This document shows, one piece after another, positions 4,835-9,151 of a stretch of DNA of 33,884 nt (its first letter is position 1; each line of letters begins with the position of its first letter). Under the pieces are notes generated by a model that saw nothing but the letters and a program-made list of their open reading frames with translations, made no database searches and was not told the origin of the DNA. Origin of the DNA: Bacteroidota bacterium (GTDB lineage: Bacteria > Bacteroidota > Bacteroidia > Chitinophagales > Chitinophagaceae); assembly GCA_018268035.1 (NCBI GenBank), contig JAFDXI010000072.1, forward strand, positions 1 to 33,884, given 5' to 3'. Position numbers and translations under genes: made by a program.

Positions 4835-4975
4835 GAATATCACTCCTTTATTGTTTCAATTTTCTCTCTGTATCAAAAGACTTTCATTTCTGTTCATGAA
4901 AAAGAAATATGGTGCCATTGGAATGATAACATCATATTGGCAACAAATATTTTTTTTATTACAATAAGTCTATTT

Positions 4976-4992
4976 ACTTTGCATTTCAAAGT
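4976..4992. promoter_or_regulatory. Palindromic operator 1
   Basis: ACTTTG-CATTT-CAAAGT is a perfect 6-bp inverted repeat with a 5-bp spacer, ending six bases before the ATG at 4999. It belongs to a 23-bp block that recurs with one change at 5973-5995. The left half-site supplies the TTTG of a potential -7 box, so a bound repressor would block RNA polymerase. The winged-helix protein encoded between the two copies is the obvious candidate ligand. Confidence 0.75.
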
Positions 4993-4998
4993 GCTTTT

Positions 4999-5646
4999 AT
5001 GAACGAATCAGAAAAGCTTTCCAACGAGCTCAGCGATATAAAACAAATTATGGAACGCAGCAGCCGCTTTATCAGCTTAAGTGGTTTGAGCGGGATTGCT
5101 GCAGGTACCTGTGCATTGATTGGCACCTGGTTTGCAGCAGATGTTATTCAAAGAAACAAAGCTGCCGTCAGGAGTTTGAAAAGGTCAATAACAGATGTTA
5201 ATCTGAGATCATTATCAGAAATATTTGGTAGCCGTTTGTTCCAGATTGCCATACTTACATTGATTGCAGCGATGGTATCAGCTTTTATTTTTACCTACCG
5301 CCGTAGCAAAAAAGCAAATGTACCGGTATGGGGTACTACTGCCCGCAGGTTAACCATTAATGTACTGGTACCAATGATAACCGGCGGTATATTTTTAATG
5401 GCATTAATTCAAAATGACATTTACGGATTTATTGCACCCGGTTGTCTGATATTTTATGGCCTTGGGGTTTTAAATGCAAGCAAATACACTTTACCTGAGA
5501 CGAGATATCTTGGTTATGGTGAAATTTTGCTGGGCCTTATTAATTTATTTTTCGTAGGGGAGGGATTATATTTTTGGGCAGCAGGTTTTGGCGTGCTGCA
5601 CATCGTGTATGGAATTTTTATGTGGTGGAAATATGAACGTAACTAA
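4999..5646 (+). CDS. Multi-pass membrane protein of the winged-helix/CreD module
   Basis: The 215-residue protein has a hydrophilic, helical N-terminus of about 24 residues (MNESEKLSNELSDIKQIMER). About six hydrophobic segments follow, near 25-46, 78-98, 118-138, 143-158, 170-186 and 188-206. A charged, mostly soluble stretch lies between the first two. No enzymatic motif is visible and the family was not named. It is the first gene behind operator 1. The regulator gene starts two bases after its stop, so the two are surely co-transcribed. The context suggests a membrane component controlled by the same switch as the CreD-like protein; the function is unknown. Confidence 0.8.
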   Translation: MNESEKLSNELSDIKQIMERSSRFISLSGLSGIAAGTCALIGTWFAADVIQRNKAAVRSLKRSITDVNLRSLSEIFGSRLFQIAILTLIAAMVSAFIFTYRRSKKANVPVWGTTARRLTINVLVPMITGGIFLMALIQNDIYGFIAPGCLIFYGLGVLNASKYTLPETRYLGYGEILLGLINLFFVGEGLYFWAAGFGVLHIVYGIFMWWKYERN

Positions 5647-5648
5647 GC

Positions 5649-5951
5649 ATGGTGATGAAAAACCCAATTGAAAATCTCAACAAAATTTTTGACAGCAGAA
5701 TCAGGCTGGGCATTATGAGTGCGCTGATGGTAAATACATCAATCAATTTTAATGATTTGAAACAACTCATCAACGTAACTGATGGCAATCTGGCCAGTCA
5801 TATTAAAGCTTTGGAAGAAAGCGGTTATATAAAAGTGCAAAAAGGTTTTATCGGCAGGAAAACAAACACTTTATATTCTGCAACCAAAGCCGGTGAAAAA
5901 TCTTTCAGGTTGCACCTTGATGCTTTGGAAAAAATGATCAGGAACTTATAA
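5649..5951 (+). CDS. Small winged-helix transcriptional regulator (HTH_34 type)
   Basis: The 100-residue protein consists almost only of a MarR/ArsR-like winged helix. It has a first helix (NPIENLNKIFDSRIRLGIMS), the HTH (NFNDLKQLINVTDGNLASHIKALEE), a beta wing (YIKVQKGFIGRKTNTLYSATKAG) and a C-terminal dimerisation helix. This matches the stand-alone winged-helix DNA-binding family (PF13601-like). It has no cysteine or obvious ligand pocket. It starts two bases after the membrane-protein gene; a second ATG at 5655 is an alternative start. It is bracketed by two copies of a perfect palindrome and probably represses both its own operon and the CreD-like gene; this is inferred from layout. Confidence 0.88.
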   Translation: MVMKNPIENLNKIFDSRIRLGIMSALMVNTSINFNDLKQLINVTDGNLASHIKALEESGYIKVQKGFIGRKTNTLYSATKAGEKSFRLHLDALEKMIRNL

Positions 5952-5972
5952 TAGAAATTTTTTTATACTTAA

Positions 5973-5989
5973 ACTTTGTATTTCAAAGT
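5973..5989. promoter_or_regulatory. Palindromic operator 2
   Basis: ACTTTG-TATTT-CAAAGT differs from operator 1 by one spacer base; the identical downstream GCTTTT is also kept. It lies 21 bp after the regulator stop and directly before the CreD-like gene. Its presence shows that the CreD-like gene has its own promoter rather than relying only on read-through. Confidence 0.75.
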
Positions 5990-7799
5990 GCTTTTTAAAA
6001 AACAAAATATATCATCTGTTCAACTATCAGTAAGGCTTTGGCTCATAACAATGCTTAACCTTGCTTTTGGTATTACTGTTTATCTTTTCATTTTTGAACA
6101 GGGTTTTGAAGTATCTGTTTTACTGATAACAACTTTATGTTTTATCGGCAGCCTGCCTACCCTCCTGATTTTGCTGATATTAATACCAGCAACAGAAAAA
6201 TTCCTGCATGGTTATAATTGGAAAATCACGGTCTTAATTTTTATGATTTTCATTATTAGTATTGGATACGGATTTATCGGAGGATGGCTTTTTGAAAACC
6301 CATTTACTGAATATTCTTCCATTCAAAATTTTCTTGAATCATCCGGTATTTATGCAGCATCCATTTTTTTTGCAGGCTTACTATCCTGTATAATCAATCT
6401 TAAAAATATCAATAAATATTTCCAATTACCATCAAATAAAACACAGAAAATGGAAAACAATTCCATGCAGCCTTATGATGTATCCATGCAGGCTGCACCC
6501 GCTAATAAACTTTGGGTTAAAGGCTTTATAACAGCAGGCCTGATATTAGTGATGATGATACCTACTGTTTTTGTTTATAACCTTGTTGAAGAAAGACAAT
6601 CAAGACAGGAAGAAGTAAAAGATGAAGTGAGCAGCAAATGGGCCGGCGCTCAAAACATTACATTCCCGTATTTGTATGTACCATATACTGTGGCCACTAC
6701 AAATGCTGATGGCAAAACAACTATTGCGACACATTCATTCATCATCCTGCCAGCCAACCTCAATGTAAATGGTACTGTATCAACAGAGGAAAGAAAACGC
6801 TCTATTTACAGCGTGCTTTTATATAATAGTTCTTTGAATGCAAGTGGCAGTTTTAATATTGAAATACCAGATGGTATTGATGCTTCAACCATCAACTGGG
6901 CAGGCTCAACATTATGTTTTGGTATTTCAGATTTTAAAGGCATTGAACAAATGGTTACCACAAAATTCAACAATATTAATTATGATCTTGCTGCAGGACT
7001 GCCTTCTAATAAACTTGATTCAATTGGCTTATCTGCTCCTGTTGCTTTAACAGCAGAAAATGTCGGGCAACAAATTGCTTTTGCAATGCCTTTAAAAATT
7101 AAGGGCACAGATCAATTGCATTTTTACCCGATGGCAGGTAATAGCCATTTCAAAATAACATCTGGCTGGCACAGCCCATCTTTTGATGGCAACACATTGC
7201 CCAATGAAAGGACATTGGATAATAAAGGCTTTGAAGCAGTGTGGAATTTCAACAAAGCCAATCTTCCATTTAATACTTTACTCAAAGATTTTAATTTCAA
7301 AAAAGAAGACTATTCTTTTGGAGTCAGCCTGTTGCAGCCAGCAGACCAATATGTAAAAACAATTCGCTGTGTAAAATATGTCATCTTATTTATTGGCCTG
7401 ACATTCTCATTATTTTTTATTGTTGAGATCATGCAGAAAAAACCATTCCATCCAATTCAGTATGTGTTGGTGGGACTGGCACTTGTCATCTTCTTTACAC
7501 TGCTATTATCTATCAGTGAATTTTTATTGTTTGATGTTGCTTATCTCTTTGCTGCATTGGCCACAGTGTCGCTGATCACATTATATGCAAAAAGTCATTT
7601 CAAAAGCTGGCCTGTAGCAGGAGTATTTGCAGGTACAATAGGATTAATTTATGGTTTCATTTTCATTTTAATAAGACTTGAAGATACAGCCTTACTGGTA
7701 GGAAGTATCGGTTTGTTTATCATCCTTGCTACTGCGATGTATGCCAGCAGGAAAATAAACTGGTATGGCAATACAATTGTTTCAACGGCTGGAATGTAA
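5988..7799 (+). CDS. CreD-family inner membrane protein with extra N-terminal membrane domain
   Basis: Residues about 175-603 are CreD-like: a transmembrane anchor followed by LVEERQSRQEEV, then EVSSKWAGAQNITFPYL, a periplasmic beta-rich domain of about 250 residues, and five or six C-terminal membrane helices with the family stretch PFHPIQYVLVGLALVIFF. CreD is the inner-membrane output of the CreBC system in E. coli and affects envelope integrity; here no CreBC is present. Unusually, about 160 residues with four membrane segments precede the CreD part, joined by a polar linker (NKTQKMENNSMQ). The start is uncertain. TTG 5976 lies inside the operator. GTG 5988 is chosen because it keeps the basic N-terminus. 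ATG 6051 would begin within the first helix. Confidence 0.85.
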   Translation: MLFKKQNISSVQLSVRLWLITMLNLAFGITVYLFIFEQGFEVSVLLITTLCFIGSLPTLLILLILIPATEKFLHGYNWKITVLIFMIFIISIGYGFIGGWLFENPFTEYSSIQNFLESSGIYAASIFFAGLLSCIINLKNINKYFQLPSNKTQKMENNSMQPYDVSMQAAPANKLWVKGFITAGLILVMMIPTVFVYNLVEERQSRQEEVKDEVSSKWAGAQNITFPYLYVPYTVATTNADGKTTIATHSFIILPANLNVNGTVSTEERKRSIYSVLLYNSSLNASGSFNIEIPDGIDASTINWAGSTLCFGISDFKGIEQMVTTKFNNINYDLAAGLPSNKLDSIGLSAPVALTAENVGQQIAFAMPLKIKGTDQLHFYPMAGNSHFKITSGWHSPSFDGNTLPNERTLDNKGFEAVWNFNKANLPFNTLLKDFNFKKEDYSFGVSLLQPADQYVKTIRCVKYVILFIGLTFSLFFIVEIMQKKPFHPIQYVLVGLALVIFFTLLLSISEFLLFDVAYLFAALATVSLITLYAKSHFKSWPVAGVFAGTIGLIYGFIFILIRLEDTALLVGSIGLFIILATAMYASRKINWYGNTIVSTAGM

Positions 7800-7925: not shown

Positions 7926-8081
7926 ATGATACGTATTAAAATCGCACTGAAATCAATGCTTTCATTACCAGTGTTATATGAATCATCCAATCATTTCCTG
8001 TTCATATTGGGTGCATTTATTTATTGTCTAATTGTGTTCATTGTTTTAAAGACATTCAAATTCAACAGGGACAGGTTTTAA
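7926..8081 (+). CDS. 51-residue single-span membrane protein
   Basis: ATG at 7926 opens a 51-codon frame: basic amphipathic start MIRIKIALKSML, one hydrophobic span (FLFILGAFIYCLIVFIVL) and a basic tail FKFNRDRF. It ends 18 bp before the diacylglycerol kinase gene, in the same direction, and probably shares its transcript. The layout of a positively charged N-terminus, one helix and a charged tail is typical of real small membrane proteins. No family was recognised. Confidence 0.6.
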   Translation: MIRIKIALKSMLSLPVLYESSNHFLFILGAFIYCLIVFIVLKTFKFNRDRF

Positions 8082-8099: not shown

Positions 8100-8489
8100 A
8101 TGTCACAGGAAAACAGCCAGGCTGTTGTTTATAAACAACAAATAAATAAGGCGTTCACCAATGCCTGGAACGGTATTACATACTTTTTTAAAAACGAACG
8201 CAACGGAATCATACAAGCCGGTGTAGCAATGCTGGTGCTATTGCTCGGGTTTTATTTTCATCTTTCACCATCTGAATGGATAATCATTATCGTTTGCATT
8301 GGCGCCGTAATCGCTATGGAAATGATGAATGCCGCCATCGAACAATTATGCAACCTTGTTTATAAGGAATATCATCCTGCAATAAAAATTATTAAAGATG
8401 TGGCTGCAGGTGCAGTGTTGTTTGTTGCCATCATCAGTTCCGTTATCGGGTTGATTATTTTCATTCCAAAAATTTTACAATTGTTATGA
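8100..8489 (+). CDS. Diacylglycerol kinase family protein (DgkA/UndK-like)
   Basis: The 129-residue membrane protein has the three-helix DgkA plan. An amphipathic N-terminus (KAFTNAWNGITYFFKNERN) and helix 1 (IIQAGVAMLVLLLGFYF) come first. Helix 2 ends in the catalytic/metal signature AMEMMNAAIEQLCN, and helix 3 follows KIIKDVAAGAVL. In E. coli DgkA the signature is ELLNSAIEAVVD-like, with Glu69 and Glu76 kept here and the final Asp replaced by Asn. The enzyme phosphorylates diacylglycerol or undecaprenol at the inner membrane; Gram-positive relatives prefer undecaprenol. It overlaps the next gene by four bases (ATGA), indicating translational coupling. Confidence 0.9.
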   Translation: MSQENSQAVVYKQQINKAFTNAWNGITYFFKNERNGIIQAGVAMLVLLLGFYFHLSPSEWIIIIVCIGAVIAMEMMNAAIEQLCNLVYKEYHPAIKIIKDVAAGAVLFVAIISSVIGLIIFIPKILQLL

Positions 8490-9151
8490 AGCTAAATAAA
8501 TTAAACGACATCCAGAAGTTGGTCACTGTTTCTGTAATGTTTACTTTATCATTATTGTTTATCCGTGCGGTATATACACATACACTGACTTATTTTTTTT
8601 ACCCCTGGAATTTATTTCTGGGATTGCTACCACTCTTCTTCAGTGGTATGTTATTGAGGCAGAAAAAATTTAACCTGATAAGCATTATGCTACTTTCTTT
8701 ATGGTTATTGTTTTTGCCCAATGCACCTTATCTTGTTACAGACATTTTCCATTTTGAAACAAGACCACCCATACCCCAGTGGTTTGATCTGATGCTTGTG
8801 GTTTCCGGAGCATGGAATGGTATTTTATTTTGCATGATATCATTATTGTGGGTTGAAAAATTTTTGAGAACCAGGTATAAATCAAAACTGGCAGAAGCAT
8901 TAATGTTTTTGACATTGATACCTTGCGGTTACGGAATATATATCGGGCGATATTTACGGTATAATAGTTGGGATGTTGTCACAGACCCTGTAAGCCTTAT
9001 CAAAACATCATCACATCATCTTTATCATCCTTTCCAAAACCTGAATGTGTGGTTGTTTACGATGGTGTTTGCGGTTTTTCTCGGCATCATTTATTTCACC
9101 ATAAAAAAACTGCCGCAGCTTATGATGCAACGGCAGTTTAAAAATGAATAA
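8486..9151 (+). CDS. DUF1361 membrane protein
   Basis: The 221-residue protein has about six to seven membrane helices and the conserved stretches of DUF1361: YPWNLFLGLLPLFFS, WLLFLPNAPYLVTDIFH, WFDLMLVVSGAWNG and GIYIGRYLRYNSWD. The NAPY-TDxFH and R-NSWD polar residues within membrane segments suggest a catalytic or transport role, but the family has no established function. Its ATG overlaps the dgkA-like stop, so both are made from one mRNA. It ends 10 bp from the convergent outer-membrane gene. Confidence 0.88.
   Translation: MKLNKLNDIQKLVTVSVMFTLSLLFIRAVYTHTLTYFFYPWNLFLGLLPLFFSGMLLRQKKFNLISIMLLSLWLLFLPNAPYLVTDIFHFETRPPIPQWFDLMLVVSGAWNGILFCMISLLWVEKFLRTRYKSKLAEALMFLTLIPCGYGIYIGRYLRYNSWDVVTDPVSLIKTSSHHLYHPFQNLNVWLFTMVFAVFLGIIYFTIKKLPQLMMQRQFKNE

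Follow-up and report, generated by a model that had tools for sequence, protein, structure and literature searches.

A candidate autoregulated winged-helix repressor with a six-helix partner and a conserved operator in Bacteroidota

Genes and operator copies at the locus

In the window, by which we mean the whole 33,884-nucleotide stretch of DNA that was analysed, two adjacent genes, TM6 and REG, are flanked by two copies of a palindromic site. TM6 (4999..5646, forward strand) encodes a protein of 215 residues. It was modelled with a mean pLDDT of 86.4 as an N-terminal helix (residues 3-22) followed by six long helices, in agreement with the six-helix protein announced in a preliminary description of this DNA. 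Comparison with Pfam gave no match above cut-off, and comparison with the PDB gave none at E up to 0.001. With a best PDB value of E 0.92, assignment of TM6 to a known fold was rejected.

REG (5649..5951, forward strand) encodes a 100-residue winged-helix regulator. Its product matched Pfam HTH_34 (PF13601) over model positions 1-80 of 80 with 94.8 bits against a cut-off of 27, confirming the winged-helix protein of this length that had been proposed to lie between the site copies. The structural model (pLDDT 93) placed a probable recognition helix at residues 45-57, wing strands at 61-68 and 71-78, and a C-terminal helix at 80-99. Residues T44-A49 and H51, in or just before the probable recognition helix, were invariant in 37 aligned sequences. 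The model matched 1ub9, the PadR protein Rv3488, and DNA-bound PadR and MarR proteins.

The gene behind REG encodes a CreD family protein (5976..7799, forward strand), scoring 450.1 bits with PF06123 against a cut-off of 23 and 443.9 with NF008712 against 275; the CreD-like protein expected behind the second site copy is thus a family member. Its listed TTG start at 5976 falls within that site copy and is therefore probably not the true start; from the sequence, translation may begin at the GTG at 5988 or later. CreD is followed on the same strand by a small ORF of 51 aa with one hydrophobic stretch (7926..8080), a gene for a DgkA family protein (PF01219; 8100..8489) and a DUF1361 gene (8486..9151) that overlaps the DgkA gene. 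All three are recurrent companions, with clusters of 40 DgkA and 38 DUF1361 ORFs across loci. A homologue of the 51-aa ORF precedes the DgkA gene at three further distinct loci: L107, L155 (equal to L009 and L120) and L152 (equal to L007).

The palindrome ACTTTG-N5-CAAAGT was found exact at 4976-4992 and 5973-5989. In the first copy, O1 (4976..4998, forward strand), it is extended by GCTTTT to give ACTTTGCATTTCAAAGTGCTTTT. A 23-base block that differs from it at one position, as the preliminary description had it, forms O2 (5973..5995, forward strand), which precedes CreD, with a gap of 21 bases between it and the REG stop codon. A run of seven T (5958..5964, forward strand) lies 9-15 bases before O2 and is absent as a feature of O1. 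No other exact copy of the palindrome was present in the whole genome (4,467,244 bases in 181 contigs). Its restriction to these two promoters therefore held throughout the 4.47 Mb, and scattered unrelated copies far from promoters, which might have spoken against an operator, were not seen. At this genome size and the window's composition, about 0.5 copies of the bare palindrome are expected by chance. Since the bare palindrome is not rare, it is not the palindrome alone but the pairing of the copies, the extra bases they share and their conservation that exclude chance, and a chance palindrome was rejected on pairing and conservation. A genome-wide list of sites with two mismatches was unusable, with counts of 17/14 versus 19/17 in the control.

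Conservation of the gene pair and the site

We compared loci with a REG match of at least 80 bits (L004-L066, L119, L151-L230 and the window), reducing 144 rows to 131 by removal of 13 with identical REG DNA. TM6 adjoined REG in 130 of these 131 loci, one of the 130 matches (L202) being a 52-bit partial hit at a contig edge. REG stood without TM6 and without the site in L050. A 22-bp form of the site, ACTTTGNNNNNCAAAGNNCTTT, was found exact upstream of TM6 in 118/130 loci and with one mismatch in 8 more. Allowing up to two mismatches, 92 of 126 such sites began 23-26 bases ahead of the TM6 start. Downstream of REG the 22-bp site was exact in 105/130 loci and had one mismatch in 9 more; the gap from the REG stop codon to O2 was 15-18 bases for 98 of 117 sites (at most two mismatches) and 21 in the window. 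Two of the records, titled Williamsia sp. and Beijerinckiaceae (L158 and L181), had a Bacteroidota-type locus inside and are probably mislabelled or mixed MAG contigs.

The gene behind REG was more variable. CreD was the first ORF after REG in 58/131 loci, a lower bound because small spurious ORFs stand ahead of CreD, and a CreD hit occurred anywhere on the locus in 72. Elsewhere the first ORF encoded a DUF4153 protein (11 loci), a Coq4-like protein, a B12-radical-SAM protein or unnamed proteins. A CreD-specific switch was rejected, CreD being the first downstream ORF in just 58 loci. By sequence comparison, the constant unit is TM6-REG, and CreD is merely the commonest downstream gene. The same gene trio, for which a search of other Bacteroidota had been suggested earlier, thus recurs as the TM6-REG pair with the site, CreD being one of several downstream genes.

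Presence of REG and of the exact site was compared genome by genome, REG being called at E <=1e-24 in a class sample and an outside-class sample, and at 80 bits in a nearer sample of 119 genomes. Because the sampled genomes share ancestry, neither these counts nor the locus counts are independent, and Fisher test values computed from them overstate independence. In the class sample (98 genomes of the class to which the window belongs), 70 had both, 2 had REG without the site, none had the site without REG and 26 had neither. The exact site was therefore found in 70 of 72 REG genomes versus 0 of the 26 counted as lacking REG, among which are three with weaker REG hits (G028, G289 and G341; E 1e-15 to 1e-21). 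One of the two genomes with REG only (G398) carries a site with one mismatch (L272). At L068, in G028, a genome without an exact site, a REG relative with an internal stop lies, by eye, next to a transposase-looking ORF.

In the nearer sample, 61 genomes had both, 2 REG only, 4 the site only and 52 neither. Among the four site-only genomes, the REG hit of G065 is partial and lies where a contig begins, that of G082 has 76 bits, and the site of G109 had no ORF detected downstream. With the CTTT-extended pattern, the site was detected in 65 of these 119 related genomes; the reversed control pattern gave 1 hit in 119, and 10 hits in a 395-genome search.

Outside the class (297 genomes), both were found in 24, REG only in 22, the site only in 9 and neither in 242, so that the exact 22-bp site was present in 24 of 46 REG-positive genomes. 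For eight of the nine with the site only, the search did yield a REG-family hit of lower significance (E 1e-12 to 1e-22). We read the loci of 20 of the 46 REG-positive genomes, 14 of the 20 being without an exact site. A site with 0-2 mismatches stood before TM6 in all 20; 18 carried a common C-to-A change, and a second site followed REG in 15. As judged from these sequences, the pair and its site are shared widely within the class and also occur outside it, across much of the phylum Bacteroidota, and the comparative data make the conserved site a convincing operator.

Promoter layout and target genes

The available text of PMC9723704 describes the -7 box of Bacteroidota as TAnnTTTG at -12 to -5. 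O1 overlaps a predicted -7 box (TTACTTTG, 4974-4981) and a predicted start site at about 4986. Placed by this rule, the site spans roughly -10 to +7, and a REG dimer bound there would thus exclude RNA polymerase. The arrangement recurred among 128 O1 copies: TT precedes ACTTTG, giving TTACTTTG at the -7 position, and 81 of the 128 have a TTTG that starts 26 bases (55 copies) or 25 bases (26 copies) upstream. At the commonest O1 spacing the start codon lies at about +14. A -33 TTTG is not present at the window copies, which have TTTT at O1 and TATA at O2.

The 118 O2 copies have no -33 TTTG; they have a run of seven T, with 86-99% T at each position. With its conserved T run in place of a clear -33 box, O2 may be something other than an ordinary promoter. 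The stem letters of the site hardly vary across copies. The commonest O2 spacer, AAATA (25/118), and its most frequent O1 counterpart, TATTT (20/128), are reverse complements of each other; the O2 spacer in the window is TATTT. We sorted the loci by the orientation of the next ORF of at least 110 aa: of 123 where it was co-oriented, 116 had O2 at no more than two mismatches and 7 lacked it, whereas of 7 where it was convergent, O2 was present in 1 and missing in 6. This dependence on the orientation of the next gene suggests that O2 serves the downstream gene, for which, on sequence, it may act as promoter or roadblock. The sole convergent locus with O2 (L027) has a convergent ORF that overlaps REG and is probably spurious. 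At L224, counted as convergent without O2, the CTTT is lost but the palindrome itself persists, in front of an ORF whose 72 aa fall below the 110-aa limit.

The site was also found away from REG. Among the matches listed, 40 loci of relatives (L081-L120) carried such distal sites, 37 of them with an ORF, and three were dropped. Of 34 first genes, 30 had relatives elsewhere in the set and 4 had none; as any ORF near REG or in 20 further site loci counted as such a relative, 30/34 is generous. One member (L097) may be a site of the O2 type at the beginning of a contig. In the 20 further site loci, from other genera, sites stood before TM6 and before genes for Coq4-like, DUF4153, CreD and MpaB-like proteins. 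A site heads the row DUF1361-DgkA-TM6-REG in L324 and L326, and precedes a gene for a 223-225-aa protein outside the target set in L315, L316 and L319. An XrtN-sorted VIT family protein (representative, 922 bits) recurs among the targets. Two site copies, 77 and 78 bases apart, lie before a Coq4-like gene in L313 and L318. At L069, a distant REG relative without a TM6 hit stands, by eye, directly before a DgkA-like ORF, a hint that the link between REG and DgkA is old.

The preliminary description had seen in this locus a compact three-gene regulon. The regulator, the two operators and the two membrane-type genes were borne out; the limit to a trio was not, CreD being one of several downstream genes and relatives having distal sites. 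In Stenotrophomonas, loss of CreD harms envelope integrity, according to the available text of PMC4689548. By analogy with that CreD we infer that the TM6-REG regulon may have a role in envelope homeostasis.

A proposed mechanism and its relation to known systems

Our preferred reading of the sequence data, which we consider likely, is that REG is an autoregulated repressor of a membrane and envelope regulon, with TM6 as the likely membrane sensor. A REG dimer would bind the palindrome. Bound REG would repress the TM6-REG operon from O1, and the genes behind O2, that is, CreD and perhaps the small ORF, DgkA and DUF1361. TM6 would be produced under the same control as REG and probably couples the repressor to the state of the envelope; its N-terminal helix might, for example, hold REG at the membrane. 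Disturbance of the envelope would then alter the amount of free REG and, with it, the regulon, envelope or lipid stress being the presumed signal.

The strongest competing possibility, which we hold to be distinctly less probable, is that REG itself senses a small molecule and that TM6 is a regulated effector rather than the sensor. Many PadR and MarR proteins sense small molecules themselves. REG shares its fold with these ligand-binding winged-helix families, and TM6 has no recognised signalling domain. Against this, REG has 100 residues and no added ligand domain, TM6 is its near-constant neighbour (130/131 loci), and REG paralogues also lie near similar membrane proteins. We read 23 paralogue loci of related genomes (L070-L072 and L286-L305), one of which (L303) gave no hit. 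A similar membrane-type protein of about 200 aa, recognised by sequence pattern, was nearby in 17 of the other 22, and no site within two mismatches was found in any of the 22. In a profile built from the 23 of 30 candidates kept by sequence pattern, these proteins aligned with TM6 over almost the whole length (probability 94.7 in one direction and 88.3 in the other). Since REG paralogues are also paired with TM6-like proteins, the combination of an HTH_34 regulator and a membrane partner seems to be a recurring one. The regulator of this second HTH_34 dyad differs from REG in the letters of the recognition helix. It often stands behind one or two of the membrane-type proteins of about 200 aa, which have an ESLxLIxxMIxxAK-like start.

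That REG might activate through the site instead of repressing is unlikely: the lack of a -33 box at O2 would suit an activator-dependent promoter, but at O1 the site lies over the -7 box and the predicted start, a layout that normally blocks polymerase. We think it slightly less likely still that a different transcription factor binds the palindrome and that TM6 and REG are only members of its regulon. The assignment of the palindrome to REG comes from sequence comparison, which leaves room for such a factor; however, exact sites track REG (70/72 versus 0/26 in the class sample), and the invariant recognition segment of REG parallels the near-invariant site. Least probable is an element that works at the RNA level (as a hairpin, terminator or leader) and not as an operator in DNA: the window copies do fold weakly (-3.3 and -4.3 kcal/mol) and O2 would be part of readthrough RNA, preceded by a T run and followed by CTTT, but the stem letters are nearly invariant, the common variant outside the class breaks one pair and weakens the fold to -1.8, and the predicted O1 transcript contains the 3' arm only.

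No published account of a TM6-REG regulon was recognised in the open-access literature searched. A broader proposal is conceivable, and we advance it tentatively. Bacteroidota may possess membrane signalling units of a class not yet described, each made of two genes, for an HTH_34 winged-helix regulator and a six-helix membrane partner, and able to replace histidine-kinase systems. The present case would be a regulon of ancient origin for envelope and lipid homeostasis, in which the 22-bp operator is nearly fixed while the genes behind it have been exchanged in evolution (CreD, DUF4153, Coq4-like, DUF1361-DgkA, the XrtN-sorted VIT protein and others), and the second, paralogous dyad would use another operator. 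Should the preferred reading of TM6-REG hold, a Bacteroidota regulon could be read from DNA alone, and a set of membrane proteins of unknown function would be tied to a single switch, so that their common role could be tested. CreD would have a control circuit without CreBC, and TM6-REG would offer a candidate mechanism for a membrane-linked repressor.

The locus shares with CreBC-CreD of E. coli and Stenotrophomonas, as presented in the available text of PMC4689548, a CreD membrane protein under dedicated regulation. Unlike in that system, CreD is here one of several alternative genes behind the regulator. A search of the genome with residues 1-228 of E. coli CreC found no CreC-type sensor region (best E 0.33), which bears out, for the CreC sensor part, the earlier remark that the CreBC system is absent. 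As in an autoregulated one-component repressor, the operator lies, by sequence, over the promoter of the regulator's own operon. The closest solved sequence to REG was PH1061 of Pyrococcus horikoshii (1ub9; E 9.3e-9), which was also the top fold match (32% identity).

The nearest parallel is with the HAAS-PadR dyads, which consist of a standalone winged-helix regulator and a multi-membrane protein and have been proposed to handle membrane signals in place of two-component systems (available text of PMC11237479). TM6-REG likewise pairs a winged-helix regulator with a multi-membrane-type protein, in all but one of the 131 loci, and the REG model superposes on PadR structures (Rv3488 and 5x11) at 1.3-1.5 A over 80-88 columns. 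The likeness to PadR lies in the fold alone, the PadR score of REG being 13.6 bits, under the Pfam cut-off of 27. In the Pfam comparison, TM6 had no match to the HAAS models (DUF1700, DUF1129 and DUF1048) at E up to 1, and the operator and target set of TM6-REG differ from those of HAAS-PadR. TM6-REG thus resembles the HAAS-PadR dyads without being a member, and the working principle of the two may be alike.
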